Origin: a virus
Direction: 5' to 3' (one strand)
DNA: 48,231 nucleotides
IMG/VR virus record: IMGVR_UViG_3300021957_000064
Span: 1 to 48,231 of that record
Under the pieces are notes generated by a model. The model was not told where the DNA came from, searched no databases, and worked only from the letters and a program-made list of their open reading frames with translations. The number at the start of each line of letters is the position of its first letter. Position 1 is the stretch's first letter. Both the position numbers and the translations under genes were made by a program. Below are positions 5,149-30,384 of the stretch, piece after piece.

Positions 5149-5191
5149 TTCTATATCCTTTTAATAGAGTCAAAGAGTACCTAGTTATACC

Positions 5192-7240
5192 TCATACATC
5201 CACTGTGTCAAGCCAGTTTGGCCCGATTTTAGCTTCTAATAATAGTGGTACATTCATTCTTACTCCATACACTGACTCAACTAGATCAGTCAAGCCCTCA
5301 TTCATATCATTTACCATACCTAATACCTGATCTACTTCATCAGGGTGTATATCAATAACTGTTGAGTCATGTACAGTATTTACCAGACAGGATTGCATAG
5401 GCTCAAGACGCCTGTACATCTCATTAAGCACGACAGGTACAACATCACCTGTTGCAAAGCCCTGCACTGGATAGTTCTTGATCATAGTGAAGTGTGTTAC
5501 ACTCCCGTTTGACCTACGAGATATGTCAGGGAAAGCATACTGCCTGCCTGATACGTTAGTAATCTTATTGAAGCGCATTGCCTCCTCACCTAAGTTCTTA
5601 TGCCATGCTGCAATCCCCTTATACTTATCAATGAATTGAATGTAGTATGCCTCCTCTGCCTTACTTCTACCATATCCTGTAGCCCCAAAGAGAGGCGCAA
5701 AGGTATGTTCCTTGGCTTGCTGGCGCGTTGTAGGCTGGCCTGCATCAGAGATAACCTTGGCTGTGTAACTGTGTACATCAAAGCCTGTGTTAATCTCCTC
5801 AATAGCAGTCTCATCCTGTGACAAGAATGCTGCCGCCCTAAACTCAAGCTGGGCAAAGTCAGACTCACATATGTAACCGCCATCCCAGCGAGACACAAAC
5901 ACACGCTTAACAGGGAATGTACCCCCACGTGGCATGTTCTGCATGTTAGGTTCCTTACCACTGAAACGTCCAGTAGCTGTCACACTCTGAGTGAGCGTGG
6001 CGTGTAAGAAACCATCATCCTTTGAGTAAATACCTATGCCATCCACAAACGTAGACAGATAGCTGCTGATAGCAGAGAAGCGTAGGTAGTCTTGCAGGAA
6101 TGAAACAGCCTCATCCTTGTTGTGTGTCTTGGCTGTACCAATCAGGAGTGTCAGCTTATCCTTACTTGTACTGAACCCATTGGCACTGACCCACTTCTTA
6201 CTAGGTGCAGAGAACCGCAACCCAGCAATCTGTTGTGTCTGAGTAAGCTGGAACCCACGAGTGTCACAGTCCTTGCACTTGTTGGGCTTAGCAAACTTAG
6301 TGCCATCCTTCTTGGTCTTGTATGTCTTGCCTAAACCCTCACAGGTAGGGCAGGTGAATGCCTTGGTACGATAGATAGGCTGGCTGTTGGAGTTTACTGC
6401 TGAGCGAAATTCAGCGGGTGTGTTGGTGAACTCAAACAGTCCAGCCCATTCCTTCTTGTTATTCATACGAACACTAAACACAACCTGAGACATCTGCTCT
6501 GGTGAGTTGATATTGATAGGCGTGTCACCCATAAGCTCACGCACCTTAGTTTGAAGTCGTGTCTCTAGCTCTGATCGTTCATCCTCAAACTGCTTTCTAA
6601 CTTTTTCTAGTTCTTCAAGATCCACCCTGATTCCTGACATGTACATTCTGGTGAGGGTCTTGCAGGTATCGAAGGTAACATCTCTGACTGTGTGAAGGGA
6701 CTTACTTTCTGGGGTAGCGTAGTCTGCTTCGATAGAGTGGAACAACTCACTAGTTGTGAGCAGGTCAGCCCTAAGATAAAGGCTAAGCTTACTGAGATCA
6801 GTTTCATTTGTGTTGATACCTTTCTTGATACATGTAGACAGGTAGTCTTCCTTTTGCTCAGCAAGGTCACGGCGTATGGCACAGGCGCTAAGAGAGATAG
6901 CATCCTTCTGCCCACGTAGAAGTAAATACTCTGCAAGCATGGTGTCATAGATAAGGCCATCATAGGTGAAGCCACTTTCCCACAGCCACATTAAGTCATG
7001 CCTAGCGTTGTGCATGATGAGCAAGGTTGTCATGTCAAGAACACTCTGTATCAATGCACGGCCTGCACCTGATGTATCCTTAGCTTCATTGTGATCTAAT
7101 GTTACAGTATGTAACTCTTCGTGATTGTCAGCATTGACCATGCCAACCTGAGTCAGCGTGTTGGTAGGCTCAAAGGGATCGTTAAAGATCTTGCCATCCC
7201 TCCAAGTCACACTGTTCTCAACGTCTAATACTAGTCTCAT
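5192..7240 (-). CDS. family A DNA polymerase with inserted DnaJ-type zinc finger
   Basis: This 682-aa replicative polymerase starts with a 3'-5' exonuclease domain: D6 and E8 in LVLDVEN (Exo I) and D82 in HNARHDLMW (Exo II). The polymerase domain has motif A (DFAQLEFR, D461), motif B (R506, K510 and the following FG and YG) and motif C (H624-D625-S626). Between the domains is an insert with C297-C300 (CPTCEGLG) and C322-C325 (CKDC), a half DnaJ cysteine-rich domain able to bind one zinc. This fusion defines the HMO-2011 group of marine phages. T7 pol has a thioredoxin-binding loop elsewhere in the thumb; whether the zinc insert serves processivity is unknown. Confidence 0.95.
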   Translation of the reverse strand: MRLVLDVENSVTWRDGKIFNDPFEPTNTLTQVGMVNADNHEELHTVTLDHNEAKDTSGAGRALIQSVLDMTTLLIMHNARHDLMWLWESGFTYDGLIYDTMLAEYLLLRGQKDAISLSACAIRRDLAEQKEDYLSTCIKKGINTNETDLSKLSLYLRADLLTTSELFHSIEADYATPESKSLHTVRDVTFDTCKTLTRMYMSGIRVDLEELEKVRKQFEDERSELETRLQTKVRELMGDTPININSPEQMSQVVFSVRMNNKKEWAGLFEFTNTPAEFRSAVNSNSQPIYRTKAFTCPTCEGLGKTYKTKKDGTKFAKPNKCKDCDTRGFQLTQTQQIAGLRFSAPSKKWVSANGFSTSKDKLTLLIGTAKTHNKDEAVSFLQDYLRFSAISSYLSTFVDGIGIYSKDDGFLHATLTQSVTATGRFSGKEPNMQNMPRGGTFPVKRVFVSRWDGGYICESDFAQLEFRAAAFLSQDETAIEEINTGFDVHSYTAKVISDAGQPTTRQQAKEHTFAPLFGATGYGRSKAEEAYYIQFIDKYKGIAAWHKNLGEEAMRFNKITNVSGRQYAFPDISRRSNGSVTHFTMIKNYPVQGFATGDVVPVVLNEMYRRLEPMQSCLVNTVHDSTVIDIHPDEVDQVLGMVNDMNEGLTDLVESVYGVRMNVPLLLEAKIGPNWLDTVDV

Positions 7241-13417: not shown

Positions 13418-14197
13418 CTATAGTTTCTCAGGGTTAGAGTATACATCTTCCAAACGAGGATGCAGTATCTCAGTGAACTCTATGTCGCAAAAGTTACCAC
13501 AGTCAGGCATGATAATCTTCTGCTGCCTACCCGCATCAGGGTCTAGCTCATCCAGAAAAGTGTTACGGATGCAGCTGTTACCTACTAAGCGTTCAGCCTT
13601 TGACATCTTATCGAAGGTATCAGGGAAGTCCCTGCGTATCTTATTCCAATACCCCTTGCCGCCCTTGACGCAGCCTATGCAGTTATTGTTTCCATAACCT
13701 AAGTCATACATTACTGGACGTTTTATTTTAGCGTGTGTCTCTAGATAATGTAAGCTCTCTGGCTTATTCATCTTGCTATCTATGAGCGGGAACAAAGGTT
13801 TAGCGTCAGGGTACTGTTCCTTGAATCGTATAGCTCTGTTGATCTCCTTCTTGCTGTACTCAAAGCCAAAGACTTGGCCCTCGTATTGTAATTCTTTCTC
13901 TAGTCTCTGGCGTACCCGCTTCTTGAGAACGAGCGTACACCTTGCGCCTCCTGGGCCATTGACATACTTGTCCTTGATTATTACGTCGAATTGATCTTTA
14001 TACTTCTCAGGCGCACGTTCAGTTACGATCTCTCTACCGTACCATTCCTCGCACTGCTCTTTGAATCTTGCGTTGTCTGAATGTGCGCTATCAATGGCGA
14101 AGTAGATAGGCAAAATGTTATCTTTACCATACTTATCAATGGCTAACTTAGTAGCCACAGCACTCGTTACTCCTGCACTCCACCACGATATAATCAT
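13418..14197 (-). CDS. PP-loop ATPase of the PAPS reductase-like family
   Basis: A 259-aa protein with an N-terminal PP-loop variant (SWWSAGVTSAV, residues 4-14) that binds ATP or adenylyl sulfate, a GGARCTLVLKK segment (C87) like the CTRELK box of PAPS reductases, and GFEYSKKEINRA (110-121). The C-terminal half has five cysteines: C173-x-x-C176 (NNCIGC), C209, C233 and C237 (DCGNFC), a possible Fe-S or zinc site. Family members reduce sulfate, thiolate tRNA, or modify DNA (DndC). No dnd, tRNA or sulfate genes are adjacent; it is followed by the winged-helix gene. The family is clear, the substrate unknown. Confidence 0.78.
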   Translation of the reverse strand: MIISWWSAGVTSAVATKLAIDKYGKDNILPIYFAIDSAHSDNARFKEQCEEWYGREIVTERAPEKYKDQFDVIIKDKYVNGPGGARCTLVLKKRVRQRLEKELQYEGQVFGFEYSKKEINRAIRFKEQYPDAKPLFPLIDSKMNKPESLHYLETHAKIKRPVMYDLGYGNNNCIGCVKGGKGYWNKIRRDFPDTFDKMSKAERLVGNSCIRNTFLDELDPDAGRQQKIIMPDCGNFCDIEFTEILHPRLEDVYSNPEKL

Positions 14198-18109: not shown

Positions 18110-18137
18110 TTGACACGTATGTTCTGTGGAGTATAAC
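18110..18137 (+). promoter_or_regulatory. rightward sigma70-like promoter 1
   Basis: TTGACA (18110-18115), 16-bp spacer, TATAAC (18132-18137). It reads toward the late genes. The -35 merges into GACACGTA, half of a motif that recurs as GGTACGTGTC/GACACGTACC at 18362-18437. The AGTTWAACT dyads begin 20 bp downstream, so a bound protein would block or control initiation or elongation. Confidence 0.6.
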
Positions 18138-21019: not shown

Positions 21020-21381
21020 TGGCAGTCTTAACCAGTGCAAAGTATGTAACTAAATCTATTGATGTAACTTCTACTAGTTCATCAAGCCCTCAAGATTTGT
21101 ATGTATGTCCTAATACTTTTGTTTGTCTGGTTAAGTTCCTGCACTTATCTAATAGCGCAGCTAATAATAAGAAGATCAGTGTGTATTGGTATGAAGCTGC
21201 CACTACTACGCATCACTATATCGTAGATGACTTCTCATCAAGTGCTAACTCTATGCATGAGGTAGTCGAAGGTGGTGGATATATTGCACTACAGCCAGGT
21301 GATAAGCTGCAGTGCTTTGCTGAGACAGCAGGTACATACCACGTAACTATGTCTGGTGAAGAATACTATCAGCCTACCTAG
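21019..21381 (+). CDS. probable virion protein, beta-sandwich type (120 aa)
   Basis: A beta-rich protein: VCPNTFVCLVKFLHLSN, NNKKISVYWYEAATTTHHYIVD, then a GGGYIALQPGDKLQCFAE segment and HVTMSGEEYY end. The order of strands and the GG.I.L..GD.L turn match the 110-aa protein at 34728-35060 in the tail-fibre region, so the two are probably distant paralogues. Tail or head decoration is likely. No catalytic motif. Confidence 0.62.
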   Translation: MAVLTSAKYVTKSIDVTSTSSSSPQDLYVCPNTFVCLVKFLHLSNSAANNKKISVYWYEAATTTHHYIVDDFSSSANSMHEVVEGGGYIALQPGDKLQCFAETAGTYHVTMSGEEYYQPT

Positions 21382-21438
21382 TAAGTCATGACGGGTATGC
21401 ACAAAATAAGGGTACTACACTAGCTATAACTAAGTATA

Positions 21439-21469
21439 ACTATCTCCGCACATAGCAAAAGGAGATAGT
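21439..21469 (+). promoter_or_regulatory. RBS-sequestering hairpin before the DUF1127 gene
   Basis: ACTATCTCC (21439-21447) and GGAGATAGT (21461-21469) form a perfect 9-bp stem with a 13-nt loop. The right arm contains GGAG, the ribosome binding site of the ATG at 21473. Folding would hide it, so translation should depend on opening this stem by a protein, RNA, temperature or transcription rate. Two TATAACT words lie just upstream. Confidence 0.6.
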
Positions 21470-21472
21470 GCA

Positions 21473-21622
21473 ATGTTTAAGAACTTACTAACACGTATTC
21501 AGAATCATCAGCAGCGTAGAGCAGACTACTGGGTTCTAAAGAATATGTCTAACAAAGAGCTACACGATATAGGTATATCAAGAGGAGAGATATACAATCG
21601 TGTATACGGCAACGAACAGTGA
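21473..21622 (+). CDS. DUF1127 family protein (49 aa)
   Basis: The 49-residue product contains the DUF1127 signature: RRADYWVLKNMSNKELHDIG followed by ISRGEI (residues about 15-40). In alphaproteobacteria such proteins are short basic regulators, several of which bind RNA and affect growth, phosphate or motility. A phage copy could steer host RNA or metabolism. The ribosome binding site (GGAG) is in the hairpin at 21439-21469. It stands as a separate unit, with about 90-bp gaps on both sides, between structural genes. Confidence 0.8.
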   Translation: MFKNLLTRIQNHQQRRADYWVLKNMSNKELHDIGISRGEIYNRVYGNEQ

Positions 21623-21733
21623 GGATAAGTAGGAGTACACCCGTACTTTTGAGTCTAACTGTTTTAGCTCATATGTCTTTTGGAGATGTAGATAGGCAAA
21701 CAGGCAGTGGACTCAGGAGAGGGGGGCTTCACT

Positions 21734-22198
21734 TTGATAGATCCAGTAACAGCAATAGGTCTAGCAACAACCGCATTTAATACTCTCAAGAAGGGTATTG
21801 CAGTTGGTAAAGACCTACAAGACATGGGTGGTCAGTTAACACAGTGGGCTGGTGCTATCAGTGACTTGGACTTTGCTGAACGTCAGAACGCTAAACCACC
21901 TTGGTATAAAACCCTTGGTGGTGGCGTTCAAGCAGAAGCAATGGAGATATTCGCAGCTAAGAAGAAAGCTGAGTCTATGCGTAAGGAACTGAAGGATTAC
22001 ATCTGTGTTATGTATGGACCTTCACACTGGGATGAGCTTATACGTATTGAGGCTGACATTCGTAAACAAAAGAAAGAACACGATCATAAACGTATAGAGA
22101 TGCAGCGTAAGTTAATAGAATGGGGAGCAGGTTTTTTCTTGTTCATCCTTATTACAGGCATCTTTGTAGGTTTAGTATATTTAAGGACGTTACAATGA
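21734..22198 (+). CDS. conserved phage protein with C-terminal TM helix (154 aa)
   Basis: The product starts at a TTG: LIDPVTAIGLATTAFNTLKKG corresponds to the MIDPVTA start seen in marine phage homologues. AGGAGAGGGGGG lies before it; a GTG at 21707 is the alternative. The body is helical with AKKKAESMRKELKDYICVMYG, a coiled-coil-like RIEADIRKQKKEHDHKRIEMQRKL stretch in the second half, and a TM helix (AGFFLFILITGIFVGLVYL) at the end. It overlaps the terminase small subunit by 4 bp. Function unknown. Confidence 0.7.
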   Translation: MIDPVTAIGLATTAFNTLKKGIAVGKDLQDMGGQLTQWAGAISDLDFAERQNAKPPWYKTLGGGVQAEAMEIFAAKKKAESMRKELKDYICVMYGPSHWDELIRIEADIRKQKKEHDHKRIEMQRKLIEWGAGFFLFILITGIFVGLVYLRTLQ

Positions 22199-28105: not shown

Positions 28106-28129
28106 CTACCCATATAACTATAAGGCTAC

Positions 28130-28143
28130 CCAGCTACGGCTGG
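28130..28143 (+). promoter_or_regulatory. UNCG-type hairpin before the scaffold gene
   Basis: CCAGC-TACG-GCTGG, a 5-bp stem with a C(UACG)G tetraloop, an unusually stable RNA fold. It is 21 bp upstream of the scaffold ATG and 24 bp after the previous stop. No T-run follows, so it may stabilise or process mRNA rather than terminate it. Confidence 0.45.
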
Positions 28144-28164
28144 CCCCAACATAAGGAGTAATAA

Positions 28165-29097
28165 ATGTCGGAAGCCCAAATTCAAACGGACTCAGTGTCA
28201 CATAATCGTAACCTATCTCGTATAGAACGTGATGAGGTTGAGCTAAAAGAACTGCTCAAGCAAGCAGGGGTAACGCAAGATGAAACAGAAGAGGAAGCTG
28301 TTGAAGCGGAACCCAATAGCTCAGAGCCTAGCGAATCCTCAGTTCAGGCAGAGAATAGTGCCAAACAAGAAAAAGAACCACAAGCTAAAGCACAAGAAGA
28401 TGAAGAGCTAAGTTCGGAAGAGAAGAACTTTAAGAAGCGTTATGGTGATCTCAGGCGGCACACTCAAGAGAAAGAGAAAGAGTTTCAGGCACAGCTTGAT
28501 AAGCTAACTTCTCAACTTGATGCAGCCACAAAAAATGAGCTTGTACTACCTAAGTCAGAAGATGAGGTAGAGGCTTGGGCTAAGAAGTACCCAGACGTTG
28601 CAGGTATCGTAGAAGCTATCGCTGATAAGAAAGCTAGTGAACGTTCATCTGAGCTTGACGGGCGCTTAAAAGAGATTGAAGCTTTACGCTCAACAGCTAA
28701 GCGTGAGAAAGCAGAAGCAGAGTTACTCTCTATGCATCCTGACTTTAAAGATATTCGTGCTGATGATGCATTTCACTCTTGGGCAGAGAAACAGCCTAAA
28801 GTCGTACAGGATGCTTTATACGAGAATAGTGAAGATGCTAAATCTGTTGCACGTGTTATTGATCTATACAAGTCAGATCAGGGCATCAAGACTAAAAGCA
28901 CTAATGACTCTGATAAAGCAGCTGCGTCTTCAGTTAAGGCTAAGGGACGTGCTACACCAGATACAGATGACTCATCTAAGTACCTCAGTGAATCACAGGT
29001 ATCCAAGATGTCACTAAAGGAATACGAGAAGCGCATGGATGAGATCTTTGATGCTCAGCGCTCTGGTAAATTTATTTACGATATGAGTAAGAAATAG
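28165..29097 (+). CDS. capsid assembly scaffolding protein
   Basis: A 310-aa acidic, Glu/Lys/Gln-rich protein with long coiled-coil helices (RHTQEKEKEFQAQLDKLTSQ; KEIEALRSTAKREKAEAELL) and a low-complexity N-terminus. Its place just before the major capsid gene is the standard scaffold position. Scaffold directs prohead assembly and leaves before maturation. The ribosome binding site is AAGGAG. Identification rests on composition and order, not on a conserved motif. Confidence 0.8.
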   Translation: MSEAQIQTDSVSHNRNLSRIERDEVELKELLKQAGVTQDETEEEAVEAEPNSSEPSESSVQAENSAKQEKEPQAKAQEDEELSSEEKNFKKRYGDLRRHTQEKEKEFQAQLDKLTSQLDAATKNELVLPKSEDEVEAWAKKYPDVAGIVEAIADKKASERSSELDGRLKEIEALRSTAKREKAEAELLSMHPDFKDIRADDAFHSWAEKQPKVVQDALYENSEDAKSVARVIDLYKSDQGIKTKSTNDSDKAAASSVKAKGRATPDTDDSSKYLSESQVSKMSLKEYEKRMDEIFDAQRSGKFIYDMSKK

Positions 29098-29098
29098 T

Positions 29099-29126
29099 TT
29101 GACATTTCTTTAATCGTAGATAAAAC
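29099..29126 (+). promoter_or_regulatory. candidate promoter for the major capsid gene
   Basis: TTGACA (29099-29104), overlapping the end of the scaffold gene, 16-bp spacer, TAAAAC (29121-29126). It lies at the head of a 237-bp gap before the capsid gene, the most highly expressed gene of such phages. AACTATAGG after it also occurs after the last AGTTTAACT dyad at 18.27 kb. The hairpin at 29135-29165 follows immediately. Confidence 0.45.
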
Positions 29127-29165: not shown

Positions 29166-29334
29166 TGCTTTTCAATAAGCACTAGCCACACGAAGAACTA
29201 CCTCTGAGTATAGGCCCAGCGCTTGAAGGATGGCCCTCCTGATAGCAATGCTGACTACCCTAGAACAAAGAGCCTCTTTTATTGTGGATATGTAGTGTCT
29301 AAATCTCACGCCATATCTATAAAGGAGAATTATT

Positions 29335-30384
29335 ATGGCTATTGGAACCGCTGGTGGTGGATTTAACGGGAACTTCTCCCCGATTATCTACTCCAAACAG
29401 GCACAGATTGCTCTACGCAAGGCTGCTGTTACTAACGCAATCACCAACAACTCATATTTCGGTGAGATTGCAAACCAAGGCGACACTGTTCGCATTCAGA
29501 AAGAGCCAGACGTAACAGTCAACGCTCTGCAGCGTCACACAGGTATCTCAGTAGAGAAACTTGATGATTCTGACTTCTCGCTCACCATTGACCAAGCTAA
29601 CTACTTTGCTTTCAAAATGGATGACATTGAAGAGCAGTTCTCAAATGTAGACTTCACATCTTTGGCTGCTGATCGTGCAGCATATAAGATGGCTGATGCA
29701 ATGGACGCAGACGTATTGTCGTACCTCTCAGGTCACACTGCTGCTGGTGCTCACATCACTAGTTCATCAGGTGATAAGCAAACTGCTTTGACTGCTACTG
29801 GTGAATACATTGCTGCGAACCACTTGGACGCAACTGACTTCTCAAGCTTGACCATCTCAGGTTCTGCTACAGCAGGAGACTCAGTTCCATTAGCACCACG
29901 TTTACCAGGTGCAACTGCATTGTCAGCAACTACAGTATCTCCTTTAACAGTCGTAGCTCGTATGGCTCGTAAGATGGATACAGCAAGTGTTGACTCACGT
30001 GGGCGTTGGATCTGTGTTGACCCAGTGTTCGTAGAGATGCTCAAAGACGAAGACAGTCGCGTATTAAATGCTGACTTCGGTGGGGCAGGTCTTATGAATG
30101 GCTTGGTTCTAAACAACTTGCACGGCTTCCGTGTTTATGTGTCTACGAACCTTCCAGCAAAAGGCACTGGCGCTGGTACTTCTGGTACAACTGCACAAGA
30201 CGCTAACTATGGCGTTATTGTAGCTGGTCAGGAGGATGCTGTTGCTTCTGCAGAGCAGATCAACAAAGTCGAGAACTATCGTGATCCCGACTCATTCGCA
30301 GACATCGTGCGTGGTATGCACCTTTATGGACGCAAGATTCTGCGCCCAGAGGCATTGCTAACAGTACGTTACAACGCTGCTTAA
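29335..30384 (+). CDS. major capsid protein
   Basis: A 349-aa HK97-fold type coat protein. It starts MAIGTAGGGFNGNFSPII and has GDTVRIQKEPDVTV, ALQRHTGISVEKLDDSDFSL and a long helix with ADRAAYKMADAMDADVLSYL. The end KVENYRDPDSFADIVRGMHLYG..ILRPEAL is typical of marine podovirus coat proteins. Codon use is more regular and the gene has the best ribosome binding site of the late region, in its own leader after a candidate promoter. Preceded by scaffold, followed by a strong hairpin. Confidence 0.88.
   Translation: MAIGTAGGGFNGNFSPIIYSKQAQIALRKAAVTNAITNNSYFGEIANQGDTVRIQKEPDVTVNALQRHTGISVEKLDDSDFSLTIDQANYFAFKMDDIEEQFSNVDFTSLAADRAAYKMADAMDADVLSYLSGHTAAGAHITSSSGDKQTALTATGEYIAANHLDATDFSSLTISGSATAGDSVPLAPRLPGATALSATTVSPLTVVARMARKMDTASVDSRGRWICVDPVFVEMLKDEDSRVLNADFGGAGLMNGLVLNNLHGFRVYVSTNLPAKGTGAGTSGTTAQDANYGVIVAGQEDAVASAEQINKVENYRDPDSFADIVRGMHLYGRKILRPEALLTVRYNAA

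Follow-up and report, generated by a model that had tools for sequence, protein, structure and literature searches.

A putative promoter-embedded lock on the ribosome binding site of a DUF1127 gene in marine phages of the HMO-2011 type

Background

The DUF1127 family is common in alphaproteobacteria, and locks on a ribosome binding site (RBS) that an internal promoter opens are known chiefly from bacteriophage T4 and its relatives. In T4, the genes e (lysozyme), soc, 49 and I-TevI have a hairpin over the RBS whose 5' strand contains a late promoter; the early long transcripts of gene e are closed, and its late transcripts, begun inside the 5' strand, are translated (PMC3014915). Leader control of a DUF1127 gene has been described for duf1127_1 of S. 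meliloti, with a translated upstream ORF (uORF) and probably Rho-dependent termination (PMC12218461). As to the proteins, CcaF1 of Rhodobacter sphaeroides binds RNA, RNA binding is without evidence for YjiS of Salmonella, and the DUF1127 proteins of Agrobacterium (e.g. SDP1) act via binding to PhoR; the family has recently been tied to RNA turnover and to this phosphate sensor.

The phage locus described here resembles the T4 system in that the Shine-Dalgarno (SD) sequence would be closed in long RNA, in that the DNA of the 5' arm contains the predicted promoter, which would give an RNA of its own without that arm, and in that the arrangement is conserved in related phages. It differs in phage group and gene, both unrelated to those of T4, and in being known from sequence alone, with a predicted transcription start. 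The T4 late promoter TATAAATA, served by gp55, is absent, the box being TATAAC, TAAAAC or TATAAT instead, and the T4 system has no counterpart to the element at a fixed 42-43 nt ahead of the box. We propose that the likeness is one of mode of action, with no sign of kinship. With S. meliloti duf1127_1 the locus shares a DUF1127 gene under leader control; the phage leaders differ in having a stem over the RBS and no conserved uORF. The phage protein has the sequence family PF06568 in common with CcaF1, YjiS and SDP1, and is set apart from them by being phage-encoded behind a phage-specific leader.

No report of a promoter-embedded lock on a phage DUF1127 gene was found in the literature searched, which excludes most subscription journals. 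Judged by title and abstract, the literature that mentions DUF1127 together with phage does not seem to treat any DUF1127 gene of a phage, and a literature search for HMO-2011 promoters gave unrelated work only.

Methods

The window, i.e. the whole stretch of DNA that was analysed, comprises 48,231 nt (IMG/VR record IMGVR_UViG_3300021957_000064, positions 1 to 48,231), and all coordinates refer to it. About 280 related loci were collected by protein searches from IMG/VR contigs and from HMO-2011-type CRP roseophages, the isolates being CRP-1, -2, -3, -13, -207, -212, -235, -345 and -738. Seven new HMO-2011-type isolates, CRP-207, CRP-235 and CRP-603 among them, are reported in PMC9038755. Leaders were grouped at approximately 86% similarity into 41 clusters, which reflect sequence similarity and are by descent not fully independent. 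After removal of two Sinorhizobium phages and one further locus, the 38 clusters from the HMO-2011-type group, picked by protein similarity alone, were analysed (protein-anchored set). IMG/VR was also searched with the two promoter elements alone, the gene and the stem not being used (promoter-anchored set); the two sets come from the same collection and overlap in part.

Results and discussion

The DUF1127 gene and its surroundings

The gene (21473-21622, +, 49 aa) matches Pfam PF06568 over profile positions 1-37 of 37 (E = 1.1e-8; 35.2 bits, gathering cut-off 23.3), in agreement with the family named in the original prediction for this DNA, and its reading frame is under purifying selection (pN/pS 0 to 0.28). 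It had been described as standing alone among structural genes; instead, it follows a block of small genes and precedes the packaging genes (163-aa gene, TerS, TerL, portal), with which it shares its strand. In CRP-1, DUF1127 is followed on the same strand by small genes, endolysin, TerS, TerL, portal and coat, and CRP-603 has a gene annotated as DUF1127 at the matching place. One genome scan gave three weakly similar cellular loci only, and a host-derived origin of the phage gene is only a guess. Elsewhere in the window, a phosphoadenosine phosphosulfate reductase gene (13421-14197, -; phrog_424, E = 3.9e-42) is a possible auxiliary metabolic gene.

The hairpin in the window

The 5' arm ACTATCTCC (21439-21447, +) and the 3' arm GGAGATAGT (21461-21469, +), which contains the SD sequence GGAG, form a perfect 9-bp stem around the 13-nt loop GCACATAGCAAAA (21448-21460, +), exactly as originally claimed; the stem is followed by gca and the start codon at 21473, a gap of 3 nt. 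Both arms are defined by sequence, local fold and arm comparison in relatives. The local 54 nt fold with -13.1 kcal/mol (z = -2.9, RNAfold). The whole 124-nt leader is not unusually stable (z = -0.66), so the signal of the stem is a local one. With 50-800 nt of upstream RNA included, the mean probability of the nine pairs is approximately 0.98 (25 C). Opening of the SD is predicted to cost 8.2 kcal/mol in read-through RNA, as against 0.8 in RNA starting from G21448; a cost of at least 8 kcal/mol is reached at none of the 60 other gene starts of the window, whose median is 1.9. The window hairpin exceeds chance.

A stem over the SD is also the general anatomy of an RNA thermometer, and a thermosensor had been among the original suggestions. 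The predicted melting contradicts it, since pairing of GGAG in the model does not drop below 97% at temperatures up to 75 C; the anti-SD is CUCC and not a run of U, and Rfam covariance models gave no match in 21200-21800 (E up to 1). A thermometer is scarcely credible here.

Conservation of the stem among related leaders

An RBS-masking hairpin was found across the 38 leader clusters, with 26 distinct best 9-nt arm pairs; besides ACTATCTCC/GGAGATAGT, examples are ACTACTCCT/AGGAGTAGT, TAATTACCT/AGGTAATTA and AAACTCTCC/GGAGAGTTT. The pairing score was at least 7/9 in 30 of the 38 clusters, compared to 7.9% of shuffled upstream sequences, and a perfect 9-bp stem was present in about half of the related leaders, compared to 0.05% of the shuffles. 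The original prediction had taken the structured leader for a sign of regulated translation and had named conservation of the stem as a check: the stem is kept while the arms change fully, and this compensatory change in a stem that masks the RBS supports translation control.

The predicted cost of opening the SD in the protein-anchored clusters has a median of 7.2 kcal/mol in read-through RNA versus 0.9 in RNA from the predicted start; in one cluster (L219) the read-through RNA is only weakly closed (2.8 kcal/mol). The loops vary in sequence and in length, from 11 to >30 nt, and some hold an inner hairpin. In the longer loops, which many relatives have (e.g. L090, L083, L125), the inner hairpin starts on the predicted first base of the transcript or only a few bases from it; the cassette's own transcript would then carry a 5' hairpin, which could protect it from decay.

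The predicted -10 box and transcription start

A predicted -10 box, TATAAC (21435-21440, +), overlaps the first two bases of the 5' arm. All 38 clusters have such a box (TATAAC, TAAAAC, TATAAT or TATACT) at the equivalent position ahead of the SD; among the window's other gene leaders, two of 44 carry one 22-48 nt before the SD. Where perfect TTGACA hexamers occur in these phage genomes, the -10 sequence behind them is usually TATAAC. Perfect TTGACA-16-TATAAC promoters lie at 18110-18137 (+) and 5184-5211 (-) of the window, and CRP-207 has one close copy of the latter.

In most clusters the 5' arm spans the end of the box, beginning approximately 2 nt ahead of it and extending 7 nt past it, so that the first loop base is the eighth after the box, the predicted transcription start. 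In the window this base is G21448; a purine occupies the position in 29 of 36 clusters. In the divergent leaders of CRP-738, CRP-235 and L116 the 5' arm lies wholly upstream and the box is inside the loop, which still leaves the predicted start in the loop. RNA from the predicted start would retain 3-7 nt of the arm in a few clusters, and in RNA begun there the SD is only partly freed in L083 (2.6 kcal/mol) and CRP-235 (4.0 kcal/mol).

The inner box of the window has no TTGACA-like -35 (best match 2 of 6), and a sigma-70 -35 at 16-18 nt from the inner box was not found in the window or in most relatives. Lacking such a hexamer, the window's box would depend on an activator or on a factor of the phage.

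An overlap of an inverted repeat with a -10 box is also a frequent arrangement for an operator, and the repeat might act as DNA, bound by a repressor or activator. Arm sequence and spacing vary widely among the relatives, whereas pairing and masking of the SD stay, and we regard this as very improbable.

The upstream element

The upstream element of the window, CGGGTATGCAC (21392-21402, +), keeps a fixed distance to the -10 box in relatives, where it takes the form CGGG(G/T)(A/T)T(G/T)C(A/C), 42-43 nt upstream of the box. At this spacing it was present in 36/38 protein-anchored and 52/53 promoter-anchored clusters. Clusters differ in how far the box lies from the SD (22 to 47 nt), and relatives differ in the genes upstream of the element. 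The constant spacing of element and box fits a promoter, and the variable loop length fits an RNA lock. The exact CGGG pattern occurs once in the window and once each in six of the nine isolate genomes, always at the DUF1127 leader; the isolates that show it differ from T4 in having one such DUF1127-tied cassette per genome.

The search of IMG/VR with the promoter elements gave 118 loci, 116 of them with a DUF1127 gene within 520 nt, and the other two look like chance matches. At the level of sequence, promoter elements and gene are thus linked nearly one to one. In the 53 promoter-anchored clusters the predicted cost of opening the SD has a median of 7.3 kcal/mol in read-through RNA, versus 0.9 from the predicted start, and the read-through RNA reaches at least 4 kcal/mol in 51 of them.

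A probable start-site-dependent lock

The -10 box and the fixed upstream element, neither of them noted in the original prediction, move the reading of this leader from a regulated switch to a lock that depends on the start site. Positions 21392-21472 probably constitute a regulatory cassette for DUF1127, a promoter-embedded RBS lock of the T4 gene e type. The promoter would consist of the upstream element and the TATAAC box, and the same DNA would encode the 5' arm of the RBS-masking hairpin. Read-through RNA from the upstream genes, which presumably exists, would contain both arms, fold and close the SD. RNA from the cassette promoter, if this is active, would start at about G21448, without the 5' arm, and expose the SD. 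DUF1127 would be made only on firing of the cassette promoter, presumably together with the switch-on of the packaging and structural genes behind it. We infer late timing from a single circumstance, namely that the promoter stands in front of the packaging and structural block. The upstream stop codon (21379-21381) lies approximately 58 nt before the 5' arm, so that a terminating ribosome would probably be too far away to open the hairpin.

Attenuation by a uORF as in S. meliloti was considered and rejected, the leader having no conserved uORF. The window leader holds only an 11-codon ATG frame without an SD, and the alignment of leaders shows that most relatives lack this ATG.

The second upstream box

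A second copy of TATAACTA lies 10 nt upstream in the window (21425-21432, +), without a matching -35, and an upstream TATAAC-like box was found in 18 of the 38 clusters. In most leaders of the CGGGGTTGCA subtype it belongs to a better-looking promoter, TTGCA(A/T)-17-TATAACTA, 14-15 nt upstream of the inner box, and RNA from this promoter would contain the complete hairpin. Two-box leaders may use both promoters, which would amount to a start-site switch; alternatively, one of their promoters is spurious. A role of TATAACTA as a general late promoter was rejected: a similar copy occurs at 28113 of the window, but is absent there in CRP-207, CRP-1 and CRP-3.

Under a tandem-promoter switch, the upstream promoter would give a locked RNA for the downstream genes and the inner promoter an unlocked one, and the choice between them would set translation of DUF1127. 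The subtype just described suits this account, with the exact 17-nt spacing of TTGCA(A/T) in most of its leaders, yet half of the clusters lack the upstream box and the window's own copy is without a -35, and we hold such a switch to be quite unlikely. In its broadest form, the idea is that of a portable cassette throughout an abundant marine phage group: starts separated by 14-15 nt would yield one locked and one unlocked DUF1127 message, and production of this putative regulator, acting on RNA turnover or on the PhoR phosphate sensor of the host, would depend at late onset on promoter choice alone. This is rather unlikely.

The better-looking promoter, in giving many CGGGGTTGCA-type leaders an RNA with the whole hairpin, would also suit a translational operator, i.e. 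DUF1127 or another RNA-binding protein that binds the stem-loop on one full-length mRNA. Such autoregulation had been part of the original prediction, and RNA binding by CcaF1 and the nearly one-to-one link between lock and DUF1127 are in keeping with it. However, loops of 11 to >30 nt and arms that change fully would hardly give one protein family a target, this account leaves unexplained why each leader has a -10 box and an element at a fixed distance from it, and, within the family, YjiS is without evidence of RNA binding and the Agrobacterium proteins act through PhoR. An operator is unlikely, and the claim of autoregulation found no support.

Implications

With the promoter-embedded lock as the preferred reading, a logic like that of T4 would now be seen in unrelated, very common marine phages of the HMO-2011 type, in approximately 50 distinct leader clusters, and serving one small gene, a putative regulator. 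That promoter, lock and DUF1127 are so strictly linked suggests a cost of mistimed production and a role for the protein at the late-gene switch. Speculatively, a DUF1127 protein that a phage makes late might influence how infected marine bacteria take up phosphate.

Other elements in the window

A conserved G+C-rich element (GGCTACCCAGCTACGGCTGGCCCC in the window) lies at 28113-28165, before the gene that precedes the coat gene, and is shared by the window, CRP-207, CRP-1 and CRP-3; it is possibly a 5' hairpin, a processing site or a terminator. The long leader of the probable coat gene starts at 29099-29126 with a promoter-like TTGACA-16-TAAAAC (TTGACA-16-TATAAC in CRP-1), after which the gene has an untranslated leader of approximately 200 nt. 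Within 29275-29335, a 9-bp stem with a 36-nt loop and one G-U pair reaches the SD of a 349-aa gene, probably that of the coat protein.
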